A DNA stretch of 64,000 bases from Gammaproteobacteria bacterium (GTDB lineage Bacteria; Pseudomonadota; Gammaproteobacteria; GCA-001735895), in contig JAOTXY010000003.1 in the NCBI GenBank assembly GCA_029862125.1, positions 1-64,000 of the forward strand, in the 5' to 3' direction. The translations under genes were made by a program, and so were the position numbers. Position 1 is the stretch's first letter; every line of letters starts with the position of its first letter. Shown one piece after another: positions 284 to 61,500 of this stretch. The notes beneath the pieces were generated by a model that was not told where the DNA came from, made no database searches, and worked only from the letters and a program-made list of their open reading frames with translations.

Positions 284-347
284 GGGCGTCCGCTTCTGGC
301 CGATCCCAGAAGCCCAGGTAGTGCTTCTCAGCGTCCGTTATCGGGAG
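284..347 (-). repeat. intergenic repeat copy 1 (reverse)
   Basis: GGGCGTCCGCTTCTGGCCG...CAGCGTCCGTTATCGGGAG. Confidence 0.8.
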
Positions 348-370
348 TTTTCCAGCACAGTGTGCACTTT

Positions 371-400
371 GTCCGACTGCATGCGCTTGTTAGACTGCAT
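371..400 (-). other. attC-like 5' motif after gene 446-895
   Basis: Reverse strand: ATGCAGTCTAACAAGCGCATGCAGTCGGAC. Confidence 0.5.
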
Positions 401-445
401 ATCGAGTTTCATTTCTATTAATCACTAGCCACCGTCATATTAAGT

Positions 446-895
446 TTAGAGTTCAATGCCACTAAGCCGCATAGCTGAGTATGCTAAGGCAAGAGCCCCC
501 CAATATACAAAGAACCCCCAGTAATAGGTGTAATAGGCAAGCGCTCCACGAGAAGGATAAACGTATTCCTTCTCCATGAACCACAATACGATATTGATAT
601 AAAGCGAGATAGATCCAGCTGCACTCCAAAGGACATAACCCCATGCATAGCCTAGGATCACGCCAATGCTTCCCGAAATTACCAGGGGGACAACAAGCAC
701 CCAATCCGCCCAAGCTAATCCCAAAGCGGAGCGAAAGTGGGTTCTGTCTCGCCAATCTTCTCCTTTGGCGACAAGGATATCTTTTGCTTGTTGGCTATGT
801 GGTTTTACTAGCATGATCAGTTGGGCCAATACGAGAGGTGCTAAGGTAACTGCACCAAATATAATGAGTACCCACGTTACAATTGTTGGTTGCAA
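446..895 (-). CDS. small multi-pass membrane protein, unknown function
   Basis: 149 aa ORF with about four hydrophobic segments; preceded by palindrome/TATAAT module and followed by TAACAAGCGC motif. Confidence 0.7.
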   Translation of the reverse strand: MQPTIVTWVLIIFGAVTLAPLVLAQLIMLVKPHSQQAKDILVAKGEDWRDRTHFRSALGLAWADWVLVVPLVISGSIGVILGYAWGYVLWSAAGSISLYINIVLWFMEKEYVYPSRGALAYYTYYWGFFVYWGALALAYSAMRLSGIEL

Positions 896-920
896 AGTTC
901 TGCCTCTAATCGCAATTTTG

Positions 921-971
921 CATGCAGTCTAACAGCATGAGTAAAAGGTAATTGACCTGATAATATATTAT
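921..971 (-). promoter_or_regulatory. palindrome + pre-gene module (site 1)
   Basis: Reverse strand: AATAATATATTATCAGGTCAATTACCTTTTACTCATGCTGTTAGACTGCATG. Confidence 0.65.
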
Positions 972-980
972 TTGCTTCTA

Positions 981-1041
981 GGCGCATGCTCCTGGCCGTT
1001 CTTTGACTCTAGCGCCGAGGATTTGTGTGTCCGCTTAGCCG
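981..1041 (-). repeat. intergenic repeat copy 2 (reverse, degenerate)
   Basis: GGCGCATGCTCCTGGCCGTTC...GTGTGTCCGCTTAGCCGG. Confidence 0.5.
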
Positions 1042-1234
1042 GAATTCGATTCCACCCCTGGGCACTAATCTGAACCAAAAGCTATTCCACAAAAACTGCC
1101 TCCGAGAAATCTCTGGCCAGTGGCTGCAACCGGCTCGCAACTAGCCTAAAGATTGATCCAGTTCTGGACTTTCAGGTTCAACTAGTGCTCTATATCGCTC
1201 GGTCTTTTCGAGCGCTGCGCGTTCCTGGATTTAG

Positions 1235-2155
1235 ATGCGACACCCACATTTCATACTGATCAGCTTTGCCGTATTTTTCGCGGCCGGAATATGGGGTCTT
1301 TACTGGTTGCCCCAGCGACTGCTTCTGGAAGCGGGGATGACTGGCGGCTGGGGCACAGTGGCTCAATATGTGATCTCTCTGGCGGTTCTGTCGCCCATCG
1401 CACTCTGGCGATTTTTAAATGGGAAGCAAGTCGGTTTTCAGCACTGGGCTTGCGGCCTGTTACTGGGTAGTGGTGCGATATTCTACGCGAACTCATTTCT
1501 CGTGACCGATATCATTCGTGCTCTGGTGTTCTTCTATCTGGCACCAATTTGGGCAACACTCGTTGAAGTCTTATTTTTAAAGCGTATTCCAAACTGGCCG
1601 AGGGCTGTCAGTATTGTATTGGCGTTAGGCGGTGTGTGGATCGTGGTTGGGCTTGATGTTGGTGTTCCATTACCGGTTAACTTAGGAGACTGGTTTGGTC
1701 TGGTCGCTGGCCTCCTGATCGCTGCAGGCGCAGCGAGGACAGAAATAGAGCAACCGCAGGGTATCTTTCCGCTATTGTTTATAGTCATTGTTTTTTGTTT
1801 TCTGTCTTCGGTTTGCCAGTACCCACTGCTGGCTGACTCAGTTGGTACCATGCCAACAATCGACGTTGCAATGTCGAGCCTGCCTCTATTGGTCGGGATT
1901 ACTTTACTGTTCGTTCTTCCAACAACTGCTATATTGTTTTGGTCTCCTTCCAGGATTGGAACAGGCGTCTTTGGCATCTTGATTCTTTCGGAACTTGTTG
2001 TCGGTGTCATCAGTGCGGCTTTGTTGACTGACGAGCCTTTTGGATGGCGTGAAGTGGTTGGTGCGACAATGATCCTTCTCGCAGGCATTGTGGAGGTTGC
2101 TTTGAGTCGGTCGCCTGAGCTTAGGTCCGACTATCCGTCGATAGTTAAAGAATAA
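1235..2155 (+). CDS. EamA/DMT-family transporter
   Basis: 306 aa, about 10 TM segments, EamA-like repeats. Confidence 0.8.
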   Translation: MRHPHFILISFAVFFAAGIWGLYWLPQRLLLEAGMTGGWGTVAQYVISLAVLSPIALWRFLNGKQVGFQHWACGLLLGSGAIFYANSFLVTDIIRALVFFYLAPIWATLVEVLFLKRIPNWPRAVSIVLALGGVWIVVGLDVGVPLPVNLGDWFGLVAGLLIAAGAARTEIEQPQGIFPLLFIVIVFCFLSSVCQYPLLADSVGTMPTIDVAMSSLPLLVGITLLFVLPTTAILFWSPSRIGTGVFGILILSELVVGVISAALLTDEPFGWREVVGATMILLAGIVEVALSRSPELRSDYPSIVKE

Positions 2156-2160
2156 TTCTT

Positions 2161-2226
2161 GAATGTCCGTTCATGGCCGAACGTCGCCTCTGACCAATCC
2201 GGCTTGAGTGTCTGCTTTGAAGAAAA
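2161..2226 (-). repeat. intergenic repeat copy 3 (reverse)
   Basis: GAATGTCCGTTCATGGCCGAACGTCGCC...TTGAGTGTCTGCTTTGAAGAAA. Confidence 0.8.
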
Positions 2227-2244
2227 GGAGTATTGCTCGGGTAC

Positions 2245-2616
2245 TTAGTCCGACCGCATGCGGTTGTTAGATATGTCATGCGCTAACTTGCTGTCAGATG
2301 GCACTTGTTCCCGATCTACCATTCCATAGTCTCTGCTGACATTTGCAACTCTCAATCGATAATCCAAAAATACTCCTTCACGCCCTTTTATTTGTGCAAG
2401 ACGATGTGATTCGATGTTTCTCCATTCTTCTATCGCTTTTTCATCTCGCCAAAATGAGAGAGATAATAATTTCCCTTCCTCTGCAAGGCTTGAAAACCTT
2501 TCTATCGAAATAAAGCCATCAATATTTTCTAATAGCGGTTTCAATCTTGCAGCTATATTCAAATATTCTTGTACTTTTCCTTCAGTCGGAATCACTTCAA
2601 AAATCACAGCAATCAC
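2245..2616 (-). CDS. antibiotic biosynthesis monooxygenase (ABM) domain protein
   Basis: MIAVIFEVIPTEGKVQEYLNIAARLKPLLENIDGFISIERFSS...LSFWRDEKAIEEWRNIESH; ABM fold signature. Confidence 0.8.
   Translation of the reverse strand: MIAVIFEVIPTEGKVQEYLNIAARLKPLLENIDGFISIERFSSLAEEGKLLSLSFWRDEKAIEEWRNIESHRLAQIKGREGVFLDYRLRVANVSRDYGMVDREQVPSDSKLAHDISNNRMRSD
2247..2280 (-). other. attC-like 5' motif overlapping 3' end of the ABM gene
   Basis: Reverse strand: CATGACATATCTAACAACCGCATGCGGTCGGACT. Confidence 0.5.
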
Positions 2617-2668
2617 AATTTATTCCTCCGATATGCGAGGCTAAATATATTTATCTCTATATCTAAAA

Positions 2669-2712
2669 ATCTAACAGAATGATTATAAAGATTTTAACCT
2701 GATAACATATTT
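2669..2712 (-). promoter_or_regulatory. palindrome + TATAAT module (site 2)
   Basis: Reverse strand: ATATGTTATCAGGTTAAAATCTTTATAATCATTCTGTTAG. Confidence 0.65.
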
Positions 2713-2726
2713 TTGCTTTGTTGCTA

Positions 2727-2790
2727 GGGGTCCGCTTCTGGCCGAAGATTGCCTCCTACCTGGACTTTGTGAGCGTCTCCTTTGGAGAAA
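2727..2790 (-). repeat. intergenic repeat copy 4 (reverse)
   Basis: GGGGTCCGCTTCTGGCCGAAGATTGCCTCC...GTGAGCGTCTCCTTTGGAGAAA. Confidence 0.9.
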
Positions 2791-2893
2791 ACAGACGCTC
2801 ATAAATGAAATTTCAGCTTCTGCTAACGAACCAACTCAGACACTTGGAGATTGGAGATGTATGCGAAAATAATAGAGCGCAATTAGCTGGTAG

Positions 2894-4939
2894 TTATTCT
2901 AATAGCCCCGCTTTGCTTAAACCACTAATAAGGTGATTGAATTGCTCGGGATTTTTGAAAGTAAACAGGTCTGACCAGTAGTCGCGCCAGCTTTCGTTAT
3001 CCCAGTCTGACTCATTGGTAAGTTCAGTTCTTGCACGTCGAAAAAACTCCGACGCCGCGGCGTTGGCCTCTTCATCCTTTCCAAGCTGCGCATAACAAGC
3101 GGCAATACAACCCTGAACCTCAATCCCGGGTGCTGACAGTTTCCCAAACGTTTTGATCGCGTTTTCGTAGCGTTCAGCAAAATACTCCGAAAATCCCATG
3201 CTTTGAAGACAGGAGTCAGGCAGGAATGGGTTTCGATTAATGGCCTCTTTGCCACAGTAAAGACTGTCTTCATAATCACCGGCACACATGGAGAAATCGG
3301 TTTTCATACAGTAATTCCAGTAATCGTTGGGATTCAAGTCCAGCGCTTTTTGTATTTCGATTTCGGCAAGCTCGAAATTGCCCTTTATATAAAAGTAAGC
3401 GCAAGCCAGCATTATATGGGCATGGCTGTCATGATTGTCCAGCTCCACTGCCTTGCTGGCACACTCAAATGTACGATCTGCGGCAGCATCATGATTTTCG
3501 GTCCAGTCGGTCCAACACTCTGCAATGTAGGTTTCGGCCAGCCCGCTGTAGGCTAATGCATAATCCGGATCCAGCTCCAATGCCTTTTCGAACATCTTCC
3601 TCGCCTGAAGAATACCCTCCTTCGAGCCGCGCCAATCGGGGAAACAGTGTTTGCCGCGAAGGTAGCAATCATAGGCCGACAGGTTCGTGCCACTTTTTTT
3701 CATCGCGCGTTGCTTGCTCTCATCTTCCAGTCGCACAGCCAGAGCCGAAACTATCTTCTGTGTGACATCGTCTTGCACCGCGAAAACATCCTCAAGGATT
3801 CGATCGTAACTCTCAACCCAAAGATGATTTCTGGTTGCAGCATCGGAAAGTTGCGCGGTTACCCGCACCCTTTCCCCTGATTTTCGGACACTCCCCTCGA
3901 GCACATACCTGGCACCGAGCTTTGCAGCCGCCTCACCCACATCAACTGACTGACCCTTGAAGGCAAAAGATGAACCACGAGCAATCACAAACAATTCCCG
4001 AAACCGGCTCAGCCCGGTGATTATGTCCTCGGTGATCCCGTCGCTGAAGTACTCTTGCTCGGAATCATCGCTCATGTTTAGAAACGGCAAGACAGCAATA
4101 GACGGTAATTCGCCAGTACTGGAATGTCCCGGATCGCCAGATGTATCTGCAGAAGGCGACTCGTCTGTAAAATCTGGTTCGGGGTCAGCGCTTCTGTTTA
4201 TTACATCTGCAGAGCCAATTCTTATTGCATCATGCAGTTCGGTTGTTTCCCGGGAGGGTTCAACGCCTAGCTCTTTGATTAAGACCTCACTACAACGTTT
4301 ATACGCCATCAAGGCATGATTTCGCTCTCCTCGAGCCGTATATACCTGCATCAAGATTCGCCAGGCTGATTCACTTATCCTGTCGAGATTGACGAATTTT
4401 TCCCCTAGTTCGGCGGCATTTTCCAGTTCACCCGATTCAATTTGGGAAACTAGTACCTTCTCCAGGGCCTGGATGACCAACCTGCGAAATCGGTCTCGCT
4501 CGGTAGCCAACCATTCTTCACCGTTGGAATCTCTTACCGCTACTCCCTCCAGAAACTCTCCTCGATAAATCCCGATCGCTTCGGCGGCAGCTTCTGGTGT
4601 TTGTTCTACCACCAGCGTTTCGAGCTTTACCGCGTCTATCTCGATCGAGCGATTATCAAAATTCACATTTATGTGATCTATTTGAAGCGGACACGGTTCA
4701 ATGTGGTCAAACATTTTCTTAAGTGCGTTCAATGCCTGGCGTAAGGAGTTACGCGCCTGTTGCTCGCCGCGATCACTCCACAAAAGATTCGCCAGGTGGT
4801 CGCGGGAATGCGGCCCTGGAACCAAGGCAAGGTAGGTAAGCAGGGTTTCCGTCTTTCGTGTAGGCAACGAAACGATCTCACCCGAAGGAAGTCGAGCTTC
4901 AAATCGGCCAAGAATGTCTAGTTGCAGGGTAGCTGCCAA
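2894..4939 (-). CDS. BTAD (SARP-like) DNA-binding regulator with TolB-like/cyclase-associated domain and TPR repeats
   Basis: N-term winged helix + BTAD, SIAVLPFLNMSDDSEQEYFSDGITEDIITGLSRF segment, C-terminal TPRs. Confidence 0.8.
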   Translation of the reverse strand: MAATLQLDILGRFEARLPSGEIVSLPTRKTETLLTYLALVPGPHSRDHLANLLWSDRGEQQARNSLRQALNALKKMFDHIEPCPLQIDHINVNFDNRSIEIDAVKLETLVVEQTPEAAAEAIGIYRGEFLEGVAVRDSNGEEWLATERDRFRRLVIQALEKVLVSQIESGELENAAELGEKFVNLDRISESAWRILMQVYTARGERNHALMAYKRCSEVLIKELGVEPSRETTELHDAIRIGSADVINRSADPEPDFTDESPSADTSGDPGHSSTGELPSIAVLPFLNMSDDSEQEYFSDGITEDIITGLSRFRELFVIARGSSFAFKGQSVDVGEAAAKLGARYVLEGSVRKSGERVRVTAQLSDAATRNHLWVESYDRILEDVFAVQDDVTQKIVSALAVRLEDESKQRAMKKSGTNLSAYDCYLRGKHCFPDWRGSKEGILQARKMFEKALELDPDYALAYSGLAETYIAECWTDWTENHDAAADRTFECASKAVELDNHDSHAHIMLACAYFYIKGNFELAEIEIQKALDLNPNDYWNYCMKTDFSMCAGDYEDSLYCGKEAINRNPFLPDSCLQSMGFSEYFAERYENAIKTFGKLSAPGIEVQGCIAACYAQLGKDEEANAAASEFFRRARTELTNESDWDNESWRDYWSDLFTFKNPEQFNHLISGLSKAGLLE

Positions 4940-5067
4940 GCTTTAGCCTTTGCTTTGTTTTTTTCGTAGCTACTGATTCTACGGGTTTTGTATATGGAAT
5001 TCACGAAGCGTCGAGCGACACTGTACACTTTTTGACGGGCTGGCAAGTAGAGATTAACCAATTACTC

Positions 5068-5131
5068 AGGGGTCCGCTTTTGGCCGAACTCGGAAGCCCA
5101 GATGACGTTTGTGAGTGTCTGTTATTGAGAA
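5068..5131 (-). repeat. intergenic repeat copy 5 (reverse)
   Basis: AGGGGTCCGCTTTTGGCCGAAC...GTGAGTGTCTGTTATTGAGAAA. Confidence 0.8.
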
Positions 5132-5406
5132 AGCAGTCCCCTCAGCGATTACTTCAATAGCCGAGAACGACTTAAAGTGCTTTTACCGAGCAAAATGCCC
5201 TCGAAGTATTGACTCGATAGCTGCAAAGTCATCGAGAATTAGGGTGACGGCCATGTTAATTCTCTTCCAAAAATATTAATAAAGTGAACCATCACGTTAA
5301 ACATCCAGTAAAGAATTATGAAAACCGCCAATAATGTTTAAAGGTTCCGTGTTTTCGCCCGAAATAGATATTACCAACGTCGGCAGGTTATGTGGACTAA
5401 TCCCTT

Positions 5407-7068
5407 ATGACAAAAAACATACAATTGGAAGGTTACACAGACCTCGCCCAAATAGGCCGCGGCGGCATGGCGACTATTTACCGTGGTCACCAGACCTCTC
5501 TAAACCGCACCGTTGCAATAAAGTTTTTATCAGCGGAACATCTCTGGGACCACCAAGCTCAGGAGTTGTTCGGCCAGGAGTCACTGGTTATCGCCCAACT
5601 CAACCACCCGAATATTATTCATATCATCGATCGAGGCTTCACTGCTGGCGGCAGACCTTATTTCGTTATGGAATACGTGGAAGGCCAGACTCTGGCCGAG
5701 AAAGTTCAACAAACCACAATGTCCCCTATGGCCAAAGTGATGCTATCAATGCAAATCTGCAGTGGTCTTGCTTATGCTCACAAGAATGGCGTAATCCACC
5801 GCGATATTAAACCCGCGAACTTGCTCATCGACAGCGAGGGTCATCTTAAAATTCTGGACTTCGGGATCGCCTGGCTAAACGCTAGAGGTAATCCCGACGG
5901 CGAGGAAGTTCTGGGCACTCCCGATTATATGTCCCCGGAACAATTCACAGCGCCCGATTCGGTTAGTCCGTTGAGCGACATTTACTCGCTAGGTGCCGTT
6001 ATGTACCTGTTGTTTGTCGGGAAAAAACACGCCGACGATATCAAAAACTGGCAGGCGCAATTGACTTCACTGCAACCGAAACTGGCTGAGCTGATTCAAC
6101 AATGTCTGGAGATCGAGTCCACCAACCGTCCGGCTTCAGCAGAAGAAGCCAGACTTCGCCTGTTACGTCTTTTACAAGGCGCGCACCTGGCCGAAGCGCA
6201 GAAAGAGGAAGCCAGTGCTGTGGTTAGCAAGGCAATCGATAATTTCGTGCTGCTCGACATAATGAAGCGCAATCAACGCGGGGCCACTTACCTGTTCGAG
6301 GATAAGTCGCGTAATCAATTAATGGTCATCAAGAAACGCGTCAAATCCGAGGCTGGACTTCGCGAGGCAAGGCTGCTGATTGACATCAAGCATCCGAATA
6401 TAATCGAAGTGCTCGGCACGTCGGAAAATAATAATGCATTTATTATAGTTATGCGTCACCTAAGCGGTGGCAGTCTCCAGGATCGCCTATCCAGACCCTA
6501 CACGGGCGATTGCTTCGTCAATACCGCGCTGCAGTTATGCCATGGCATGCAGGCTGCGCATGACAACGATATTCTGCACGGAAACCTGTGCCCCAGTAAT
6601 ATCCTGTTCGATAAAAAGGACAGAATCCGTATCAGCGATTTTGGATTCGAGAAGCATTACGGAAAAGAGGGAAAAGACTCGTACCAACCTCCTGTTCTCA
6701 GGGCTGAGGCTTCGATAGAGCGTGATGTTTACTCTATGGGTGCTATTTTCCACCATATGCTTACCAGCGAAACACTCAAGTTTTCACATCGCCGCATACA
6801 ACCCTGTCCCGCTTTCGAAAATCTCGACACTCGTTTACAAGCGTTGTTACGGAATATGCTGGAAACCGATTCGGATAATTACCTGGATCGATTGGACAAA
6901 GTCATCGTCCAGCTTGAGTCTCTCAAGGGGAAGCTGCCCGAGGCTGTGCTTGAGCGGAAAAAACGCCATCGTCGCTTAATCTGGTTTATGACAGGCGGGC
7001 TGCTGTTAATTGGAATTGCCGTTATCGTCGCTTATCTCTATCCGGATTACTGGCAAGGTAACTACTAA
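5407..7068 (+). CDS. serine/threonine protein kinase with second degenerate kinase domain and C-terminal TM helix
   Basis: First domain: IGRGGMATIYRG, HRDIKPANLL, DFG; second domain HGNLCPSNIL + DFG; C-terminal LIWFMTGGLLLIGIAVIVAYLY. Confidence 0.85.
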   Translation: MTKNIQLEGYTDLAQIGRGGMATIYRGHQTSLNRTVAIKFLSAEHLWDHQAQELFGQESLVIAQLNHPNIIHIIDRGFTAGGRPYFVMEYVEGQTLAEKVQQTTMSPMAKVMLSMQICSGLAYAHKNGVIHRDIKPANLLIDSEGHLKILDFGIAWLNARGNPDGEEVLGTPDYMSPEQFTAPDSVSPLSDIYSLGAVMYLLFVGKKHADDIKNWQAQLTSLQPKLAELIQQCLEIESTNRPASAEEARLRLLRLLQGAHLAEAQKEEASAVVSKAIDNFVLLDIMKRNQRGATYLFEDKSRNQLMVIKKRVKSEAGLREARLLIDIKHPNIIEVLGTSENNNAFIIVMRHLSGGSLQDRLSRPYTGDCFVNTALQLCHGMQAAHDNDILHGNLCPSNILFDKKDRIRISDFGFEKHYGKEGKDSYQPPVLRAEASIERDVYSMGAIFHHMLTSETLKFSHRRIQPCPAFENLDTRLQALLRNMLETDSDNYLDRLDKVIVQLESLKGKLPEAVLERKKRHRRLIWFMTGGLLLIGIAVIVAYLYPDYWQGNY

Positions 7069-7207
7069 ATGAACGGGTCTTTATTGAGCATAACCTCAAT
7101 ACCCGCTGGCGTAATCGACCGCTGCAACCAGGGCCGAGGAAAACCAGGTCAGGGAGCAATTGTTTCCAATACTTACGAAATTTGCTCGCTAACCCATGTT
7201 TTCTGCC

Positions 7208-7274
7208 GGGCGTCCGCCTCTGGCCGTTTCGAGAAGCCCAGCAAGCTCATCTGAGCGTCAGCTTTGGAGAAAAC
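7208..7274 (-). repeat. intergenic repeat copy 6 (reverse)
   Basis: GGGCGTCCGCCTCTGGCCG...CTGAGCGTCAGCTTTGGAGAAAA. Confidence 0.85.
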
Positions 7275-7440
7275 CGACGCTAAAGCTCGAGGCATCAGCG
7301 ACGATTTACAACCCAACCCGGTCTCCCGACAGATGTCGCTTAGTGATTAATTTCCCACATTGGGCACGGCTACAATTCAGGAGTACGGTCAATTTCCCAA
7401 CAAAAAATCGACCTCACTTGAGGTGGCTAACCATTCTCGC

Positions 7441-7788
7441 TTAGTTCATCGGATATTTCGTTCTTACCCTTTTTTGGCGATCTTCCTTATTCCATTTACC
7501 TGTTTCCCTCGGATCGGCCTGGCCCCAGGCATCTCGAGTTTTAACCTGTGTCAATTTCATTTCGTGCTTTCTTTCTGCCTTATCATCGGCCAGGGTAAAC
7601 TTGGAGATTGTCGTATCTTCGTCAGCGTTATATCTCCTGAGTTTTTTGGTAATACTTGCTCTCATTGCCAATTCACTACGTATAGCCGATTTGCGACTTA
7701 TCGCCGGTTCAGGGTCAACGGTTTCACTTTTATTCCCGCGCTTGAAAAGCCAATTGAACATAATTGGGCTCCAAAATTTCTTGAACAT
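7441..7788 (-). CDS. hypothetical protein
   Basis: 115 aa highly charged ORF; intergenic position; no recognised motif. Confidence 0.4.
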   Translation of the reverse strand: MFKKFWSPIMFNWLFKRGNKSETVDPEPAISRKSAIRSELAMRASITKKLRRYNADEDTTISKFTLADDKAERKHEMKLTQVKTRDAWGQADPRETGKWNKEDRQKRVRTKYPMN

Positions 7789-7920
7789 GGTTATCTATCG
7801 AATTGCTAATACTCATTGTTGCGAAGTACTTGCGTTAAATATAGCCTCTAAGTCGGTGTCAACCATAGAAATAATTCACCATCAGCTTGTGAATTAGTGG
7901 AATTTCATAATTCTCTTGGC

Positions 7921-7986
7921 CAGCGTCCGTTGCTGGCCGAAGATTGCCTCCTAGCCCAGCTAATTGAGCGTCTCCTTTGAAGAAAG
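7921..7986 (-). repeat. intergenic repeat copy 7 (reverse)
   Basis: CAGCGTCCGTTGCTGGCCGAAGATTGCCTCC...TTGAGCGTCTCCTTTGAAGAAA. Confidence 0.9.
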
Positions 7987-8185
7987 CTGACCCTCAAACT
8001 AGATCGATCAGCGGCGACAAGCGACTGTGATTTCAATTGATCACGCGCGCAGCGGGCATTGGGTTCGACTTGTTATGCATTGGTAGGCACTCTGCAGAAA
8101 TTTCTGGCATCACCCAAAGCTAAGAGACAGAAGATTGTGATTTACCTCATCAGGCCTCTCGACCAATACTAATAGGTATACTGTC

Positions 8186-8212
8186 CCCAGATTCCAGATT
8201 CCAGATTCCATT
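8186..8212. repeat. short tandem repeat (AGATTCC)n
   Basis: CCAGATTCCAGATTCCAGATTCCA next to AATAGGTATACTGTCCCC. Confidence 0.85.
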
Positions 8213-8221
8213 TCTCCTCGA

Positions 8222-9472
8222 TCAAATGGTGCCGAGCATTTGTTCGATCGTGGCTACCTCATCCTGCGATTCCTTCATGAACTCGATGCTATCCTGTGAA
8301 CCGAAATCGGTTAGTTTCAGTTTTTCAAATGCGGGCATTTTGGACAGTAGCGGTAACTGATCTGCATGCTCCGTCCCCAGGTAGCTGTGGTACCGGGCTA
8401 TCAGGACCAGATCGCAAAGGTCGGTGCTGACGGAATTGTTACGGAACCAGCTTCGGGACTCTTCTCCTACCGTAACCAGTTCATCTCCCAGATTCCATTT
8501 TTGCAGTAACATACTATTGATTTGAGGGCGCAACGCCTTGACGGTTTGATCGAGTGCATTCTCATCGTCATACTGGTCACTATGTTCCTGGGCATATTCC
8601 AGGATTGCGATGACGCCCAGGTCACTTAACAGCCCGGCCATTTGCGCGGCATCGGGATCCAAAATACCGGATTTCGCGGCGAGCACACGGCTAAATGCGG
8701 CTACTCTGCGACTGTTTTTCCAAAGTTGCCGCATCCGTTTTTTCATGCCGACCGATTTTTCCTGGAACAGCCGTGTGGTGGCGATGATAATGATATGACT
8801 CTGAACCACCTTCATACCCAGGCGCACTATGGCCTGGCGCAAGGATTCTACTGGCGATCTTCCCTGGTACAGGGGGCTGTTGGCGTGTTTTAACAGATAT
8901 GCCGTTATGACAGGATCCGACTGGATCAATTCCTGAATCCTGTCGAAATCACAATCTTCTCGGGCAAATTCCTGTTGGACTTTGACGACGATATCCGGCA
9001 GGGTCGGCAAGCTGATATTTTCACTCAAAATGTCCTGAAATAACTCGTTCGTCAAGCGGTTCGCTGTTTCACCCTTGTCAATAAAATTGACTTCTATTTC
9101 AGGATTCTCGCTTTCCAGTGCCTTCGACAACTCGGATAATTTTTCGTCGCTTATCTCCAAATAATGCACGGTGCTAATTGCATCGACATCGTAAAGGCTG
9201 GGCCGAAGCTGGGCGACCGGCTGAAGCCAGCCATCGGCCATGGTGTTTACTTTTTTGGTAATGCCATCCACGGCCCGGCTGATGGCGTCACCCGACAAAA
9301 TGTACAGGCTATAACCGCCCGTGTCTCCAGCCGCTATGATATGGTCACCCGGTTTGGCGACATTGATGGTCAGCGATTGCGCAAGGCTACTTAATTGATC
9401 GTCGCTGAATAATTCCAGGCTGCGGATATTTTTGAGCGTCGAAAGATCGGGATTGCCGGCATTACTTTGCAT
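8222..9472 (-). CDS. HDOD domain protein with N-terminal cyclic-nucleotide-binding-like domain
   Basis: LPTLPDIVVKVQQEFAREDCDFDRIQELIQSDPVITAYLLKHANSPLY plus cNMP-like N-terminus. Confidence 0.85.
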   Translation of the reverse strand: MQSNAGNPDLSTLKNIRSLELFSDDQLSSLAQSLTINVAKPGDHIIAAGDTGGYSLYILSGDAISRAVDGITKKVNTMADGWLQPVAQLRPSLYDVDAISTVHYLEISDEKLSELSKALESENPEIEVNFIDKGETANRLTNELFQDILSENISLPTLPDIVVKVQQEFAREDCDFDRIQELIQSDPVITAYLLKHANSPLYQGRSPVESLRQAIVRLGMKVVQSHIIIIATTRLFQEKSVGMKKRMRQLWKNSRRVAAFSRVLAAKSGILDPDAAQMAGLLSDLGVIAILEYAQEHSDQYDDENALDQTVKALRPQINSMLLQKWNLGDELVTVGEESRSWFRNNSVSTDLCDLVLIARYHSYLGTEHADQLPLLSKMPAFEKLKLTDFGSQDSIEFMKESQDEVATIEQMLGTI

Positions 9473-9528
9473 ACCAGTGAATTATAGCCAATAAAAGCAT
9501 ATTAAAAATTTGACGACTAAAGATTTTG

Positions 9529-9563
9529 AATTATACGTTTTTCGAGCCTTAAACATATTATCG
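9529..9563 (-). promoter_or_regulatory. palindrome-half + TATAAT module (site 3)
   Basis: Reverse strand: CGATAATATGTTTAAGGCTCGAAAAACGTATAATTCA. Confidence 0.55.
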
Positions 9564-9573
9564 CTTGGTTGTC

Positions 9574-9637
9574 GGGCGTCCGCTCCTGGCCGAAGGTTGC
9601 CCCTGACGAGAGAATTTTCAGTGTCTCCTTTGGAGAG
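9574..9637 (-). repeat. intergenic repeat copy 8 (reverse)
   Basis: GGGCGTCCGCTCCTGGCCGAAGGTTGCCCC...CAGTGTCTCCTTTGGAGA. Confidence 0.9.
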
Positions 9638-9666: not shown

Positions 9667-10290
9667 TCAGACTTCGGTCTGCTCAGCCATTTCCAAAGCA
9701 TCTTCTACCTCGATGCCCAGGTATCTAATGGTACTTTCCATCTTCGTGTGACCCAATAGTATCTGCACCGCCCTCAAATTCTTGGTTCGACGATATATCA
9801 AAGATGCTTTCGAGCGTCTCATCGAATGCGTACCATACTCGGCTGGATCGAGACCGATATCTCGAACCCAGTTATCCACCAATCGGGCATATTGTCGGGT
9901 AGATATATGGATAGATGATCGATTGCGGCTGCTGAACAGATACTCATCCGACATCAACTCCGCATGATTGATCCAGTTGCCAATCGATTCTCGGGTTTGT
10001 TCGGTGATTTCAAATTGAACGGGTAATCCCGTCTTTTGTTGTACCACCACAGCACGTCTGGAGACTGTTGCCCCGTGGGTGACGTCTCGGACTCTTATCT
10101 TGACCAGGTCACAGCTTCTGAGCTTACTGTCGATAGCGAGATTGAATAATGCTAGGTCACGAACCCGTTTTGAAATTTGCAGTCGGATTCGGATTGCCCA
10201 GATTTCCTTGAGCTTGAGTGGTGGTTTCTGACCCGTGAGCTTGCCCTTGTTCCAGGGATTTTTGGTTGCTATATGGCGTAAGTGGTTCAT
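9667..10290 (-). CDS. minimal tyrosine-type recombinase/integrase (catalytic domain only)
   Basis: 207 aa; SKLRSCDLVKIRVRDV, THSMRRSKAS (HxxR), GHTKMESTIRYLG (H...Y); no N-terminal core-binding domain. Confidence 0.85.
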   Translation of the reverse strand: MNHLRHIATKNPWNKGKLTGQKPPLKLKEIWAIRIRLQISKRVRDLALFNLAIDSKLRSCDLVKIRVRDVTHGATVSRRAVVVQQKTGLPVQFEITEQTRESIGNWINHAELMSDEYLFSSRNRSSIHISTRQYARLVDNWVRDIGLDPAEYGTHSMRRSKASLIYRRTKNLRAVQILLGHTKMESTIRYLGIEVEDALEMAEQTEV

Positions 10291-10462: not shown

Positions 10463-11122
10463 ATGGATATTCAAGCTCCATCTGGCACTACTTCCGATAC
10501 GAGGCGATTTCGTATCGCTTTTATCGTCGCATTTTCGTTCGCGCTGTTGCTATGGGTATTTCATTTTGTCGGATACATTAGTGAGTATGATTTTTCTCAA
10601 TTCGGTATTTATCCGCGCCGTGTGGTTGGACTTGTAGGTGTTCTCGGTGCACCCTTTATCCATGCCTCTGTGTCCCATCTATTCGCTAACACCCCACCGA
10701 TAATTGTGATTGGTACAATGCTGCTCTACGGATATCCTCAAGCATCCAAAGTGTTTTTGCCAGTCGTCTATCTTGGCAGCGGTGTCGCAGTGTGGTTATT
10801 TGCCCGTGAGGCATATCATATCGGCGCAAGCGGACTCGCTTTCGGTATGTTGTTCTTTGTTTTTACGATTGGTGTACTTCGTTGGGAGCGGCGTACCATA
10901 GCCATCTCATTGTTGGTGTTTTTTCTATACGGAGGCATGATTTCAGGTGTAATACCAGGTGCACAGGAAATTTCTTTCGAGTCTCATTTGAGTGGTGCGC
11001 TAATCGGTATATTGCTGGCCTTCCTATTGCGTCATCGTGATCCTGAGTCGCCGCGTAAACAGTACAATTGGGAGCACGAAGAGACGGAATCCGACGATTA
11101 CGACTGGCCAGACCGGGAATAG
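10463..11122 (+). CDS. rhomboid-family intramembrane serine protease
   Basis: HASVSHLFANTPP, GASG active-site serine, SHLSGALIG histidine. Confidence 0.85.
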   Translation: MDIQAPSGTTSDTRRFRIAFIVAFSFALLLWVFHFVGYISEYDFSQFGIYPRRVVGLVGVLGAPFIHASVSHLFANTPPIIVIGTMLLYGYPQASKVFLPVVYLGSGVAVWLFAREAYHIGASGLAFGMLFFVFTIGVLRWERRTIAISLLVFFLYGGMISGVIPGAQEISFESHLSGALIGILLAFLLRHRDPESPRKQYNWEHEETESDDYDWPDRE

Positions 11123-11140
11123 TTGAATTGTGTGTTTAAT

Positions 11141-11206
11141 TTCTCCAAAGGAGACGCTCAGACGTGCTTGTCAGGCGGCGGCAAACGGCCAGGAACGGAC
11201 GCTCGG
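11141..11206 (+). repeat. intergenic repeat copy 9 (forward)
   Basis: TTCTCCAAAGGAGACGCTCAGAC...GGCGGCGGCAAACGGCCAGGAACGGACGCTCGG. Confidence 0.9.
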
Positions 11207-11211
11207 CAACA

Positions 11212-11576: not shown

Positions 11577-11592
11577 AAAAAGGGGATCAATC

Positions 11593-11705: not shown

Positions 11706-11716
11706 TCATTTTCCGC

Positions 11717-12308: not shown

Positions 12309-12371
12309 TTGCCCAATAGCAGACGCTGAAAAACCTTTCCTGGGCTGCTGAGAACGGCCAATAACGGACCT
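12309..12371 (+). repeat. intergenic repeat copy 11 (forward, degenerate)
   Basis: TTGCCCAATAGCAGACGCTGA...GAGAACGGCCAATAACGGACC. Confidence 0.7.
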
Positions 12372-12396
12372 TTCCCTGAGTAAGCCAAATTGTAAC

Positions 12397-51946: not shown

Positions 51947-51985
51947 AACGATATATTTTCATAACTTCCATCGAAATTTGTCATA

Positions 51986-52873
51986 ATGTCGGCACTTGAT
52001 ATCGATTCCATGCGCGCCTTGACCGCAATCGCCGAAACTGGCGGTATTACTCGTGCTGCGAAACGGTTAAACCTTTCCCAGTCGGCGGTCAGTCACAAAA
52101 TGAAGCGCCTCGAGCGTAAGCTTAACCGCAGCCTGTTTGCGCGCGCGGACGGTAAGCTGAACCTGAGTGCTGACGGTGAGAAATTGCTCGACTATGCGCA
52201 GCGCCTGGTAAAACTGCATGACGAAGCCTACGCCAGTTTTCACCAGAGCGACCTCGCCGGCGAGTTGCGCCTAGGGATTACCGAGGACATCAGCGCCCCG
52301 GGGATGGCGCAAATCCTGTCGAGCTTTTCCACCGGTTTTCCAAATGTTGCACTGACCTCGCGCGTAGCGCATACGCCCGAACTGGTACGCTGGTTACGTG
52401 CAGGCGAAATAGACATGGCCCTGATAGAGGTGTTTGAATCCGAGTTGCGCGAAGGCGATCATTTGCTGGGCCAGCAGCAGGTGGCATGGTTGCAGGCGGA
52501 AGATTTTGTGCTCGATCCCGGGCATCCGATTCCGTACGTGGCCTATCACAAGGATTGTTTTTACAAGGCCTGGGCCGAAAAAGCGCTGGCCGAAATCGGT
52601 TGCAGTTTGCGGGTCGTGTTCGAATGTCCGAGTATCGAGGGTATGGTCAACGCGGTACGCAGCGGTCTGGGAATCGGGCTGGTTAACCTGGGTGTGCTCG
52701 AACAGCGCCAGCAGGGTGGACGCCGCGGTGACAGCCGGGGATTGAAAATCGACCAGGTTGATTTGCCGGAACCACCACCGATTCAACACATCGCCCGCTT
52801 CTCAACGGGCGTTTCGACACGGCAGATGGATAAACTACTCGAATCGATCAAGAATGAACTGGGAGCCCGCTAA
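51986..52873 (+). CDS. LysR-family transcriptional regulator
   Basis: LDIDSMRALTAIAETGGITRAAKRLNLSQSAVSHKMKRLERKL; divergent from the flavoprotein gene. Confidence 0.92.
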   Translation: MSALDIDSMRALTAIAETGGITRAAKRLNLSQSAVSHKMKRLERKLNRSLFARADGKLNLSADGEKLLDYAQRLVKLHDEAYASFHQSDLAGELRLGITEDISAPGMAQILSSFSTGFPNVALTSRVAHTPELVRWLRAGEIDMALIEVFESELREGDHLLGQQQVAWLQAEDFVLDPGHPIPYVAYHKDCFYKAWAEKALAEIGCSLRVVFECPSIEGMVNAVRSGLGIGLVNLGVLEQRQQGGRRGDSRGLKIDQVDLPEPPPIQHIARFSTGVSTRQMDKLLESIKNELGAR

Positions 52874-53610
52874 TGAGTAAGCCTGAACAGCCTTCGCCGA
52901 TCGTGTTGGTATCGGGTGCGAGTAGTGGTATTGGAGAAGCCATCTGTCGCCTGTTGATCGAGAAGTCGTATCGCGTGGTCGGTGCGGCACGCAATGAATC
53001 CCGCTTGCAACAGCTGTCTGCCGAACTGGGTGAAGGATTTTATCCGCTGGTACTCGATGTCACCGACAGTGCAGCGGTAGCTGGTGTGCAACAGGCATTG
53101 CCACGGGAGTTTCATGACATCGAGGTGCTGATCAACAATGCCGGCCATGATACCGGCGGGCGCAGGCTGTTTGACGAAGGCAGTGCTGAGCAGTGGTGCG
53201 ATATTATCGAGACCAACGTTCAGGGGACGTTACGGCTTACACGTGCGTTAATCGATGACATGCTCGACCGTGGCTCGGGACATATCATCAACATGGGTTC
53301 AATCGCAGGCCTCAAGCCTTATGCCACCGGTACCGCCTATGTCAGCAGCAAATACGCGGTGCATGGTTTCAGCGAAAGCCTGCGTCTCGATTACGCCAGC
53401 CGGGGAATTCGCGTCACCGAAATCATGCCGGGACCGGTGCGTACCGGGTTTGCTCAGCAACGACTCGGCGATGCACAACAGGCACGCGACTTTTACGATA
53501 GTTTCGCACAATGCCTGCGACCAGAAGATGTCGCTAACAGTGTATTTTACGCGCTAAAGCAGCCGAAACATGTCGAAATTGCCCAGCTGGTTGTTTTGCC
53601 CGCTTCTTAG
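52873..53610 (+). CDS. short-chain dehydrogenase/reductase
   Basis: VSGASSGIGEAIC, NNAGHDTGG, YVSSKYAVHGFSESL; TAATG overlap with LysR. Confidence 0.92.
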   Translation: MSKPEQPSPIVLVSGASSGIGEAICRLLIEKSYRVVGAARNESRLQQLSAELGEGFYPLVLDVTDSAAVAGVQQALPREFHDIEVLINNAGHDTGGRRLFDEGSAEQWCDIIETNVQGTLRLTRALIDDMLDRGSGHIINMGSIAGLKPYATGTAYVSSKYAVHGFSESLRLDYASRGIRVTEIMPGPVRTGFAQQRLGDAQQARDFYDSFAQCLRPEDVANSVFYALKQPKHVEIAQLVVLPAS

Positions 53611-53624
53611 TAACGAACCCAGGT

Positions 53625-53690
53625 TTTCCCGATAGCGGACGCTCGCCCGTAACAAGCGAGAGTCAGAGAACGGCCAAAAGCGGACGCTGG
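53625..53690 (+). repeat. intergenic repeat copy 12 (forward)
   Basis: TTTTCCCGATAGCGGACGCTCGCCC...AGAACGGCCAAAAGCGGACGCTGG. Confidence 0.75.
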
Positions 53691-54595: not shown

Positions 54596-54675
54596 ACGAT
54601 CATCCTGGTGTTTTCATCGCAAACACCAGATATCAGTATATGGAAATCCGGTTTAATATCCATTGGGCGCCTGTT

Positions 54676-54738
54676 TTCTCCAAAGGAGACGCTCATAAAG
54701 CTCTGGTAGGCGGCAATCTTCGGCCAGAAACGGACCCT
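54676..54738 (+). repeat. intergenic repeat copy 13 (forward)
   Basis: TTCTCCAAAGGAGACGCTCATAAAGCTCTGGTAGGCGGCAATCTTCGGCCAGAAACGGACCCTTG. Confidence 0.95.
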
Positions 54739-54845
54739 TGGTTTTTCGTCAAGTCCATCAAAACGAACTTAATTGGTACCATTTGATCCATATCAAGCCC
54801 CTATTATTTTTGTGGATTAGAGTGAATTGATAATCCATTCGTAGC

Positions 54846-55964: not shown

Positions 55965-56852
55965 TTACGGTGTTACTTTAGGCAGTTCGTTTGAAAGAAT
56001 ATCAAGATTGGGAAGCATAATGATTTCTATGCGACGATTGAGCTGCCGACCTTCTTCAGTTTCATTATCAGCTCTTGGGCGAAATTCACCAAATCCGGCG
56101 GCTGAAATATTCTCAGGATCAACATCGATATCTGTCAGTAAATGGACGACTGTGAGTGCCCGGGAAGTGGATAGTTCCCAATTACTGGGAAACTGTGCAC
56201 TTTTAATTGGCTTATTGTCAGTATGCCCTTCAATTTGAAAACGCCTGTCTGAAAATTGGCTAAGTACCGAGCCGATTTGAGTCAGGGCCTCTTCGCCTTC
56301 AGGATTTAAGTTAGCGCTACCGCTTTTGAACAGGACATTATTGGGGAGATTGATGACAATTCGACCTTGTTCAATGCTAACCGTTAATTGGCCGCCGTCA
56401 ATCATGGTTTTCAAGGTATTAACAAAATTTTCATATATTTGATTGCGACGCTTGGTTTCAATCTCAATATTTCGTAGCGTAGTCATTTGTGCTTGTGATT
56501 CTGAGAGTTCCTGTTGGAGATCCTTTTTTCGTGCTTCAAGTTTCATTAACTCATCCACAGCTGCCACAACTTGCAGTCTGGCGGATTTTAGTTCCTGTTC
56601 TGTTTTCTGTATTTGTTGTTGATTACGATTGATTTCCTCCTGAGCCAGTGCATTCTGCATTTTGGCGGCAGCTAACTCCTGTTCTGTTTTCTGTATTTGT
56701 TGTTGATTGCGGTTGATTTCTTCCCGAGCGCTTCCCAGGGATTGGCGCATTGAATCCATTTCAGCAAGTGCCGCTTCATGTTTACCGCTAGATACGCAGG
56801 CAGATAAAAGTAATAACGGGAGAATAGTGAAGGTTAGTGTGCTAATTCTCAA
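55965..56852 (-). CDS. OmpA/MotB-family lipoprotein with coiled coil
   Basis: LLLLSACVSS lipobox; QIEGHTDNKPIKSAQFPSNWELSTSRALTVVHLL; FGEFRPRADNETEEGRQLNRRIEI. Confidence 0.88.
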   Translation of the reverse strand: MRISTLTFTILPLLLLSACVSSGKHEAALAEMDSMRQSLGSAREEINRNQQQIQKTEQELAAAKMQNALAQEEINRNQQQIQKTEQELKSARLQVVAAVDELMKLEARKKDLQQELSESQAQMTTLRNIEIETKRRNQIYENFVNTLKTMIDGGQLTVSIEQGRIVINLPNNVLFKSGSANLNPEGEEALTQIGSVLSQFSDRRFQIEGHTDNKPIKSAQFPSNWELSTSRALTVVHLLTDIDVDPENISAAGFGEFRPRADNETEEGRQLNRRIEIIMLPNLDILSNELPKVTP

Positions 56853-57187: not shown

Positions 57188-57294
57188 TTGAGAGGATCGA
57201 CATTATATGACTTCATGATGTTTTTTAGTGAAGAACCTGCGCGTAAATAATTCACAGGCCGTTCAGTTTCGGTGCGTCGAACTTGAACGTTAGT

Positions 57295-57349
57295 TTTCTC
57301 GATAGCAGACACTCACAAAGCCCTGGTGGGAGGCAATCTTCGGCCATTT
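57295..57349 (+). repeat. intergenic repeat copy 15 (forward, 3' truncated)
   Basis: TTCTCGATAGCAGACACTCACAAAGCCCTGGTGGGAGGCAATCTTCGGCC. Confidence 0.85.
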
Positions 57350-57370
57350 CCAGAAGCTCAAAGATGATGC

Positions 57371-58976: not shown

Positions 58977-59023
58977 CCAATGCCCTAAGTAGTAATCGAG
59001 GGGTAGTATACCTATTTGCTCTC

Positions 59024-59090
59024 TTTTCTTAAAAAGAGACGCTCAGTAATCTGGGGTGGGCGGCAATCTTCGGCCAGGAGCGGACGCTCA
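59024..59090 (+). repeat. intergenic repeat copy 17 (forward)
   Basis: AAAAAGAGACGCTCAGTAATCTGGGGTGGGCGGCAATCTTCGGCCAGGAGCGGACGCTCA. Confidence 0.95.
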
Positions 59091-59100
59091 TAAGTGAAGC

Positions 59101-59142
59101 GATAATTTGTTATCAAGCCGAAAACCTTATAATTCAGCTGTT
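59101..59142 (+). promoter_or_regulatory. palindrome + TATAAT module (site 7)
   Basis: GATAATTTGTTATCAAGCCGAAAACCTTATAATTCAGCTGTTA. Confidence 0.7.
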
Positions 59143-59165
59143 AGCTCTGTATACCGAGAGATAAT

Positions 59166-60287
59166 GTGCGGTTAGGAAAAAGCCCAGCAATTTACTACAT
59201 CCTCCTAATGGGGATTCATGTAATACAGATTTCCATGTTTGGATGCACTGCTACAAATGCGTCCGATTTGAGTCAACAGCAACGCATAGAAGAAAGCCCA
59301 CAATGGAATGGTGAAGCATTCCAAAACCCGGAAAGGGTTCCAGATGTAGAATGGGGTCCAAGCCTGAAGATGTTCTGGAATTACTTCTTCGATAAACCAG
59401 AAGGATTTCTACCTGATCCCCCACTGACTGCAGAACCGTTTGATATTGCCCAATGGAATGGACAGCGAGACTTACAGTTCGCCTGGCTGGGGCACACAAC
59501 CTTCCTTATTAAGGTCGATGACAAAGTGATCCTGACCGATCCCATTTTCTCGCAACGAGCGGGCTCCTTTGCATGGGTGAGTCCGAAGCGATATTCTAAA
59601 ACGCTTGCTACTACGGACATTCTTCCAGAGCTCGATGTCGTATTGATTACGCATAATCATCCCGACCATCTGGACGAGGATTCAATTAAGGTACTTATTT
59701 CCAAGACCAGGCACTTCGTCGTGCCCCTTGCCGTGGGGAAATTATTGGAAGACTGGGGTGTGCCCCATGAAAAAATATACGAACTTGATTGGTGGCAGGC
59801 AACATCCATTGTTGGTTTAACGATTACTGCGGCTCCGTCGAAGCACACTTCTGAGCGGGGGTTATTTGATAAAAACCTGACGCTTTGGGCCTCCTATGGG
59901 ATTCGGGGAAAGAAACAGAATCTATATCTTAGTGGGGACTCTGGCTGGTTTAAGGGTCTCTACGAGATCGGGGAGCGACTAGGTCCTTTCGATGTGACCT
60001 TCTTTGAGATTGGTGCTTACAGTAATCTCAAAGGTCAGATGGAGGTCCATTACACCCCAGAACAGGCGGTACAAGCACATCAAGCTGTCAGGGGTAAACT
60101 GATGGTACCTAGTGGCTGGGGCACCTTTGATCTGGGACTGTTTCCTTGGTACGAGCCGATTGAGCGATTTTTGATTGCAGCTGATCATACTGGTATCGAA
60201 TATCTAACACCTAAAATTGGAGAAATAGTTAACCCAGAGCAGATGGGAGGCCGCGATGCATGGTGGAAACCATTTATCTATAAATAA
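59166..60287 (+). CDS. MBL-fold metallo-hydrolase (NAPE-PLD/UlaG-like)
   Basis: WLGHTTFLIKVDDKVILTDPIFSQRAG; ITHNHPDHLD; LSGDSGWF. Confidence 0.88.
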   Translation: MRLGKSPAIYYILLMGIHVIQISMFGCTATNASDLSQQQRIEESPQWNGEAFQNPERVPDVEWGPSLKMFWNYFFDKPEGFLPDPPLTAEPFDIAQWNGQRDLQFAWLGHTTFLIKVDDKVILTDPIFSQRAGSFAWVSPKRYSKTLATTDILPELDVVLITHNHPDHLDEDSIKVLISKTRHFVVPLAVGKLLEDWGVPHEKIYELDWWQATSIVGLTITAAPSKHTSERGLFDKNLTLWASYGIRGKKQNLYLSGDSGWFKGLYEIGERLGPFDVTFFEIGAYSNLKGQMEVHYTPEQAVQAHQAVRGKLMVPSGWGTFDLGLFPWYEPIERFLIAADHTGIEYLTPKIGEIVNPEQMGGRDAWWKPFIYK

Positions 60288-60294
60288 ATCGTAA

Positions 60295-60350
60295 ACGGAT
60301 ACTCGTAAGTGATTACCGGGCTTCATTCTTCGGCCAGGAACGGACACTTA
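60295..60350 (+). repeat. intergenic repeat copy 18 (forward)
   Basis: CGGATACTCGTAAGTGATTACCGGGCTTCATTCTTCGGCCAGGAACGGACACTTA. Confidence 0.8.
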
Positions 60351-61346
60351 AGTTTTTATAACGATAACGATTTTCCCTTTGTGGTTTCCTTCTCCAAAGT
60401 AACGCAACGCTTCAGGCACCTCACTCAACGGATAGCTGCTGTCGATAACAGGAACGAGCTTACCAGCATCGATTAGTTCTCTCAGATCTGTTAGACCTTT
60501 ATTTGGCCCCTCCGCCACTAAGCAAAGTTTTCTGTCGTCACGGGTCAGTCGTCCGATGGCGCTGAGTAGCCAAAGTTGATAGACACGAGGAATTGAACCG
60601 CCGACCATGGCATAGGTGCCCCCTGGATTTAATGCTCGTTTATGGTCAAACATGGATCGGAAATTCTGACAATCAACAACCAGATCATAGCGCTCTCCAG
60701 TCTTCGTGAAATCATCCTGAGTGAAATCAATTACGTGGTCTGCGCCAACCGACCGAATGATATCCAGCTTGTGCGAGGTATCTACCCCCGTCACTTCTGC
60801 CCCCCAGTGCTTGGCGATTTGAACTGCAAATGTACCAACACCGCCGCCTGCTCCGTTAATCAAAACCTTTTGCCCTGGTTTTAGCTGCCCGGCTTTGAGT
60901 AATCCCTGCAAGGCCAGGACACCAGCCTGGGGTACGGAGGCTGCTTCTGCGAAAGTTGAGTGTAGGGGTTTGAGTTCAAGGGCGGTTTCTTTCGCGCAGG
61001 CATATTCGGCAAAACCACCCCAGTTATCCCAGAGATCGCCAAAAACCTCATCCCCGGGTTGAAATCGTTTGACGGCCTTGCCGATTGTCTCAACGGTTCC
61101 TGAAACGTCAGAGCCAAGTATCTGCTTGCCTGGCCTTGGCTTAAGAAGACCGTAAAAGAGACGGTTAATAAACGGCTTTCCGTTCAGGAACTCCCAGTCC
61201 CAGGAATTGATAGAGGACGCGTGAACGCGTATCAGTAACTCATCGTCCCTCGGCGTAGGTTTTGGCACCTCTTTCAATTCAAGGCCATTCGGCAACCCAT
61301 ATTGAGTAAATACGATCGCTTTCATGAATATCCCCCGTGACAGCAA
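60348..61346 (-). CDS. zinc-type alcohol dehydrogenase-like NAD(P)-dependent oxidoreductase
   Basis: LGSDVSGTVETIGKAVKRFQPGDEVFGD; INGAGGGVGTFAVQIAKHWGAEVTGV. Confidence 0.88.
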   Translation of the reverse strand: MLSRGIFMKAIVFTQYGLPNGLELKEVPKPTPRDDELLIRVHASSINSWDWEFLNGKPFINRLFYGLLKPRPGKQILGSDVSGTVETIGKAVKRFQPGDEVFGDLWDNWGGFAEYACAKETALELKPLHSTFAEAASVPQAGVLALQGLLKAGQLKPGQKVLINGAGGGVGTFAVQIAKHWGAEVTGVDTSHKLDIIRSVGADHVIDFTQDDFTKTGERYDLVVDCQNFRSMFDHKRALNPGGTYAMVGGSIPRVYQLWLLSAIGRLTRDDRKLCLVAEGPNKGLTDLRELIDAGKLVPVIDSSYPLSEVPEALRYFGEGNHKGKIVIVIKT

Positions 61347-61433
61347 TCATAACTTGAGACGTAATGCAGGAGTCGATATTTTGGCTGGATTAATAACTTT
61401 CGGTCAGTTAACCGATAATTTCTGCAGGACTAA

Positions 61434-61500
61434 TTACTCCAAAGCAGTCCCTCAACACCTTAACATTAGAGGCTCAGAACGGCCAGGAGCGGACGCTCAG
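61434..61500 (+). repeat. intergenic repeat copy 19 (forward)
   Basis: TTACTCCAAAGCAGTCCCTCAAC...CAGAACGGCCAGGAGCGGACGCTCAG. Confidence 0.85.

Follow-up and report, generated by a model that had tools for sequence, protein, structure and literature searches.

The window analyzed here is a 64,000-nucleotide stretch of the genome of an uncultured gammaproteobacterium of the GCA-001735895 lineage (assembly GCA_029862125.1, contig JAOTXY010000003.1, positions 1 to 64,000) that contains tandem arrays of genes separated by copies of an intergenic repeat, which we call E. Copies occupy the minus strand at 284–9636 and the plus strand at 11140–61499, and the gene of a 207-aa tyrosine recombinase, P0001, is located precisely where their orientation flips, between two arrays that diverge from this pivot (Table 1). 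A sequence-only reading of the window had reported 19 intergenic copies of an asymmetric, unnamed repeat family and none at 12.4–53.6 kb. An nhmmer profile made from these copies found all 19 again (E-values of 3e-9 to 3e-18) and none at 12.4–53.6 kb, and the copies do sit at gene boundaries. No Rfam model matches anywhere in the window, and the open-access papers to which all of our literature searches refer yielded no named element, no description of such an element, and nothing relevant to the literal E motif. The sequence-only reading was right about the family and took the repeat itself as the finding; it overlooked the array of interchangeable units, the apparently fixed crossover core, and the recombinase gene at the point where copy orientation flips.

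Structure and distribution of the repeat E

E is an imperfect palindrome of approximately 124 bp with the sequence TGAGNGTCNNNTTTGGGTCGTAAATCGCCGCTGATNTATNGANTTTGAGCGTCNGCTTTCTCCAAAGGAGACGCTCANAAAGC--GGTGGGAGGCAATCTTCGGCCAGAAGCGGACGCTCA. The 55–67-bp copies described previously are real sequence, but they represent the 3' part of this longer inverted repeat; the 5' arm is seen in many of the approximately 100 copies on other contigs and in the full-length window copies, examples of which are marked in Table 1. An alignment of 26 full copies has 128 columns and a mean identity of 73%, and the hexamer CGGCCA is unchanged in all 26 of them as well as in the 19 window copies. One arm, TGAGCGTCCGCTTC, is matched by five 14-nt consensus windows (positions 5+, 38-, 50+, 81-, and 126-), with Bhattacharyya similarities of 0.86–1.0, where the mean is 0.69 (sd 0.07). 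The two near-direct GACGCTCA blocks of the sequence-only reading are present but constitute two of these five inverted or direct arms, whose consensus is TGAGCGTCNGCTT. The arms define three core-type sites with spacers of 4–6 nt: S1 (spacer GGGTCG), the central S2 (CTCC), and S3 (CGGCCA), the left arm of S3 being weak. Compensatory changes had also been raised; the alignment contains no compensatory RNA structure, with almost no shared fold (RNAalifold, -2.75 kcal/mol) and no covariation, and 12 copies have no common single-strand DNA fold (z from -3.8 to +0.6). Given this near absence of RNA structure and the inconsistent single-strand folding, E does not look, by these predictions, like either an RNA hairpin or a folded attC.

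The genomes compared are metagenome assemblies, and the genus set comprises 31 genomes. The family extends beyond the window: a covariance model counted at least 104 copies in the host genome (3.7 Mb in 188 contigs, 91% complete), at least 110 in G020, 87 in G030, and 1–38 in 23 other members of the genus, the counts for the richest genomes being lower bounds, and no copy in the remaining five. Contigs of G000, G020, and G030 often end within E arrays, which suggests that the arrays interrupt assembly and that the true numbers of E are higher. A pattern scan of genome contigs identified real E copies in isolates Ww576 and MAG_Ve_Sed_03; outside the genus (Pseudomonas, Halomonas, and others) it returned many hits, which were single matches lacking the structure of E and which we took as chance or coding sequence. 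Neighboring copies are co-oriented in 250 cases and opposed in 7 (321 sites; 204 and 3, respectively, in a first, smaller set). Since a ratio of approximately 1:1 would be expected of a dispersed transposon or repetitive extragenic palindromic (REP) family, E does not belong to such a family. The intervals from E to E have a median length of 982 bp (n=201), and exactly one open reading frame (ORF) of at least 80 aa was found in 150 of the 201 by a simple ORF caller without a gene model. Gene direction relative to E is mixed (138/101) and gene content is miscellaneous, with 93 Pfam families in 67 ORFs of the host genome, nearly all of them single occurrences.

Table 1. E copies and associated features of the window
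Coordinates	Strand	Feature	Remark
283..348	-	E copy, 3' part; canonical attC half in place of 5' arm	profile match
979..1044	-	E copy, 3' part, then attI-like site	profile match
2160..2226	-	E copy, 3' part; attC half on 5' side	profile match
2724..2846	-	full-length E, then attI-like site	106 bits
5067..5177	-	E copy	55 bits
7206..7328	-	full-length E	88 bits
7329..7920	-	mobile unit	97.8% edge-to-edge match in isolate Ww576, other neighbors
7921..8045	-	full-length E, with 5' arm	102 bits
9573..9638	-	half-E, attI-like leading site of minus array	nhmmer 43-54 bits; without 5' arm; right after recombinase stop codon
9667..10290	-	P0001, 207-aa tyrosine recombinase, catalytic domain only; proposed cognate integrase	Pfam Phage_integrase
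11123..11206	+	half-E heading plus array, after rhomboid gene	49 bits
11637..11705	+	hybrid: E 3' part between attC half and attI-like site	profile match
12309..12374	+	E copy, attC half on 5' side	profile match
53622..53690	+	half-E heading second array; its CGGCCA at 53671-53676	synteny with array-free sister stops at CGGCCA
54656..54741	+	E copy	76 bits
55734..55815	+	E copy	57 bits
55814..57271	+	mobile unit, OmpA-domain gene	94% edge-to-edge match in G020, other neighbors; breakpoint right after CGGCCA
57272..57360	+	E copy, then attI-like site	67 bits
58236..58333	+	E copy	67 bits
58334..59024	+	mobile unit, polyketide cyclase-like gene	87% match in G030, other neighbors
59021..59090	+	E copy, then attI-like site	58-60 bits
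60285..60350	+	E copy	42 bits
61421..61500	+	final E copy of second array	48 bits

Exchange of units between genomes

BLASTN searches of the E-to-E intervals against each other identified whole units shared between genomes. The window unit at 7329–7920 matches its counterpart in Ww576 over 593 bp, and two further units match at 97% (L007, 9343–11038, in G030) and 95% (L015, 8546–9235, in G020). In a larger set, 15 whole-unit pairs of at least 80% identity occur at different loci, and the neighbors differ in the pairs inspected. Homology starts close to the final ~20 nt of the left E and extends approximately 100 nt into the right E. It ends right after CGGCCA in two pairs (L007/L029 and window 55814/L036) and a few to ~20 nt from CGGCCA in two others (L015/L035 and window 58334/L026). 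Based on these homology limits, the unit is composed of the 3' tip of one E, a gene, and the next E up to CGGCCA, which is the geometry of an integron cassette with another core. In the best-resolved pairs, [gene+E] units thus delimited act like mobile cassettes whose crossover point is fixed. We regard the E arrays and the exchange of their units between species as well established.

An entire array is present or absent at one locus. Window positions 51501–53674 and 62942–64000 are contiguous in G030 (L213:561–2734 and 2741–3799), with flank identities of 94% on the left and 98% on the right, and the left match stops inside the CGGCCA of the half-length E that is the first of the second array. 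Empty and filled sites, suggested earlier as a check, do exist in this sense, and what differs is the whole array and not a single repeat. The absence in G030 may reflect gain elsewhere or loss there. At the same locus G020 has E copies in a different array with other genes; apart from the flanks and E itself, the only sequence that it shares with the host units is a single 141-bp stretch close to the far end. Past the last E of the window, the stretch from 61.5 to 62.9 kb (61500–62942) reaches the core flank without a terminal E.

Several features of array content stand beside these observations. The OmpA-domain gene contains an 84-bp tandem duplication (56572–56729, 84% identical) in its coiled-coil part, and a 334-aa ORF without a Pfam match lies past the last E at 61554–62558. 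A family of ~600 aa, with nucleotide-cyclase and tetratricopeptide repeat domains in the related genomes, recurs as diverged paralogous units in several arrays (L026:6760–8571, L027:112–1893, L028:2775–4553 and 7377–9149, L038:1492–3312, and window 2894–4939) and gives a weak PADLOC match to Pycsar cyclases. Two array-unit ORFs of G020/G030 match IS110-type transposases (PF01548).

A small recombinase and the half-E behind its gene

P0001 matches Pfam Phage_integrase (PF00589, 1.2e-17), keeps a complete catalytic set (R58, K86, H155, R158, H181, and Y190), and has no N-terminal domain. It is one of four tyrosine recombinases encoded in the host genome, the others being XerC, XerD, and a canonical IntI on contig C143; against the integron-integrase model TIGR02249 it scores 22 bits, the cut-off being 265. 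A half-E without the 5' arm begins ~30 nt past the P0001 stop codon and heads the minus array. This arrangement recurs around other copies of the gene: a decayed copy on G030 contig C13 (81%) has a half-E at the equivalent place, with minus-strand E on one side and plus-strand E on the other; host contig C122 retains the last 36 recombinase codons only, followed by a half-E heading an array; and the copies in G012 and G007 are followed by diverged half-E sequences, recognized by eye. No E lies directly behind the recombinase remnant on G020 contig C39. On the other side of P0001, also at the pivot, is a gene encoding a rhomboid/rhombosortase-like membrane protease (10463–11122).

Proteobacterial plasmids frequently encode homologs of P0001, 1361 records having a match. 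P0001 shares ~60–74% identity with, and is a member of, a family of small plasmid recombinases named 'tyrosine-type recombinase/integrase' (e.g., on C. metallidurans pMOL30 and P. aeruginosa pPUV-7), for whose function we found no description in the open-access papers searched. Many of these homologs, like P0001, have an E-core-like site after the stop codon. For 24 diverse homologs, the best S3-like match downstream of the gene exceeds that upstream (Wilcoxon p=0.001) and that in shuffled DNA (p=2e-6), and the clear sites lie 30–66 nt after the stop codon on the same strand (Achromobacter GCCGGCCAGAAGCGGTGGCCCA; C. metallidurans GTCGGCCATTAGGGGCCATTTG; P. aeruginosa ACCGGCCAAAAGCAGCCGCCCG). 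This downstream site links, at the level of sequence, the enzyme family to the site; it falls short of proof of catalysis. Unlike the genus studied here, plasmids contain no E array detectable by blastn. The conserved recombinase peptide GQKPPLK is encoded in several homologs by E-core-like DNA (CCGGCCAGAAGCCGCCGCT; window 9667–10290 and homologs L293, L295, and L274), and we ask whether this likeness is due to chance or marks a second, internal site.

Relation to integrons and interpretation

The host genome also contains a canonical chromosomal integron (L006, contig C143, 476–2091) with a complete IntI, an attI, and a standard 73-nt attC (R'' ACATAAC, R' GTTATGT); its IntI gene adjoins a carboxylesterase gene, an arrangement that is syntenic in G020 and decayed in G030. 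Four stretches of the window (283–972, 2160–2700, 11206–11620, and 11706–12300) each consist of one canonical cassette in an E unit. Their layout is an E, an attI-like part (GATAATATATTATC-AGG...CCTT...CATGCT-GTTRRRY) that by eye resembles the attI beside IntI, a gene, an attC half (RYYYAACAAGCGCATGCAGTCGGAC), and the next E. The genes are located at 446–895, 2245–2616 (ABM monooxygenase), 11253–11576, and 11773–12267 (GNAT), and R'' and R' agree within the cassette (GTCTAAC/GTTAGAC at 446–895, ATCTAAC/GTTAGAT at 2245–2616, and TCATAAC/GTTATGA at 11773–12267). These hybrids show contact between the E system and the integron, and canonical cassettes within E units possibly represent a hybrid of two cassette systems.

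Like an integron (defined as in PMC8618304), an E array consists of mobile cassettes in tandem, mostly with one gene each and variable in content. E arrays further resemble sedentary chromosomal integrons and clusters of attC sites lacking integron integrases (CALINs) in having one co-oriented site per gene, a crossover toward the 3' end of that site, a tyrosine recombinase with a leading attachment site, mostly unrelated genes, and many arrays without a recombinase nearby. They differ in the recombinase, which has ~205 aa, consists of a catalytic domain only, and scores far under the IntI cut-off; in the site, which has a CGGCCA core, weak single-strand folding, and five 14-nt arms; and in their layout, with mixed gene direction and a leading site that lies downstream of and co-oriented with the recombinase gene. 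Pure E copies have neither GTTRRRY/RYYYAAC boxes nor a G|TT crossover, and attC halves and attI-like sites border only a minority of copies. IntI and E numbers are unlinked: G013, G011, and G027 have a strong IntI and 0–1 E, whereas G004, G006, and G005 have 23–29 E and matches at the level of XerC/D only. Because of this lack of linkage and of R boxes in pure E, E arrays fail as integrons, yet they appear to work in an integron-like manner. We rejected both an interpretation of the repeats as insertions within long attC sites belonging to the chromosomal integron, most E copies lacking R boxes or attC/attI neighbors, and the canonical IntI as the enzyme acting on E, on account of the phyletic mismatch. 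That E copies are ordinary attC sites of the integron on C143 is accordingly very improbable; a canonical IntI and attC do exist in the host, and attC halves and attI-like sites are joined to some copies, but this account would have to accommodate a crossover at CGGCCA and weak single-strand folding.

The reading that we favor, with a probability of roughly two in three, is of a gene-cassette system that resembles integrons without being one and in which E serves as the site of recombination. Recombination at E is likely site-specific, and the P0001 family is its probable agent. A cassette would consist of one gene and one E, and arrays would start at a half-E without the 5' arm, acting as an attI-like site. 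P0001 would be expected to bind the 14-nt arms flanking the 6-nt spacer. The recombinase, encoded at its own locus or on a mobile carrier, would join one E at CGGCCA to another or to a half-E; circular [gene+E] units would thereby be excised and inserted, which in turn would give rise to head-to-tail arrays. We infer both the circular intermediate and current activity, as we do the role of P0001. Most arrays, which now lie away from an intact recombinase gene in a CALIN-like manner, were presumably built in trans or earlier, and CALINs provide a precedent for arrays that outlast a decayed recombinase gene (PMC9024848). For the genomes with ~100 E copies and recombinase remnants, we posit either sporadic, enzyme-dependent exchange in trans or homologous recombination on older arrays as the source of much of today's shuffling.

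Several observations weigh against this proposal. An intact recombinase gene is present in only one of the 31 genomes of the genus. The main difficulty is that G020 and G030, each with ~100 E copies, keep remnants only, so that the number of E copies does not follow the presence of the recombinase. Approximately one third of the P0001 homologs show no clear downstream site, and the site motif was learned in this genus and the homologs are related, so that the p-values given above overstate independence. The right breakpoint lies at the E center (S2) and not at CGGCCA in the pair window 7329/L101 and probably in two lower-identity pairs as well, and change-point analysis did not locate breakpoints in pairs of low identity. 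The conserved cores are the longest identical stretches, where homologous recombination would also tend to cross, and recombination is deduced throughout from comparing sequences.

These points bear on the main rival, which we consider unlikely, namely that E is an old repeat and that RecA-type crossing between copies shuffles the units without a dedicated recombinase. The identity of about 70% between copies over ~124 bp, the breakpoints at the E center, and the rarity of an intact recombinase are consistent with it, although 70% identity over 124 bp makes a poor RecA substrate. Homologous recombination would leave unexplained the single orientation of E, the ratio of roughly one gene to each E, the occurrence of a half-E next to the recombinase gene where arrays begin, the invariant CGGCCA, and the conserved downstream site in other taxa. 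Transposition of a palindromic element between genes, as in miniature inverted-repeat transposable elements (MITEs) or enterobacterial repetitive intergenic consensus (ERIC) sequences, is improbable. E does resemble these elements and REP sequences with their bacterial interspersed mosaic elements in being an intergenic imperfect palindrome with terminal inverted repeats and more than 100 copies; however, such a repeat would insert alone, in random orientation, and with target duplications, for which no systematic search was made, whereas E is strictly head-to-tail (250:7), clustered with about one gene per interval, and in the cases seen does not move alone, the gene+E unit, or at the compared locus the whole array, being what is present or absent. 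Regulatory or terminator repeats without a role in recombination would account for the intergenic position, but with E direction independent of gene direction, no conserved RNA structure, and mobile units, we find this account hardly credible. XerCD/dif systems and pdif modules have core-type sites in which inverted arms surround a ~6-nt spacer, with gene modules between sites. E shares this organization, but its arms are 14 nt long, all of its sites point in one direction, and by eye the arm consensus is unlike dif.

To our knowledge, no well-known system other than the integron keeps genes in the form of interchangeable cassettes of one gene each. With somewhat less confidence than for the cassette system itself, we lean toward viewing the E arrays as a second, independently evolved class of cassette array, in which a widespread family of recombinases of ~205 aa would use a downstream half-site as attI and the ~124-bp E as the analog of attC, and which, in at least one gammaproteobacterial genus, would amount to at least 100 cassettes per genome, with exchange among species continuing, next to a true integron from which the E system can carry cassettes. 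If this is true, cassette arrays would have evolved more than once, the second time with unrelated sites and another recombinase, and a class of "intergenic repeats" to which integron finders are blind would be explained. A very common and uncharacterized family of plasmid recombinases would then be implicated as a carrier of gene exchange in Proteobacteria.

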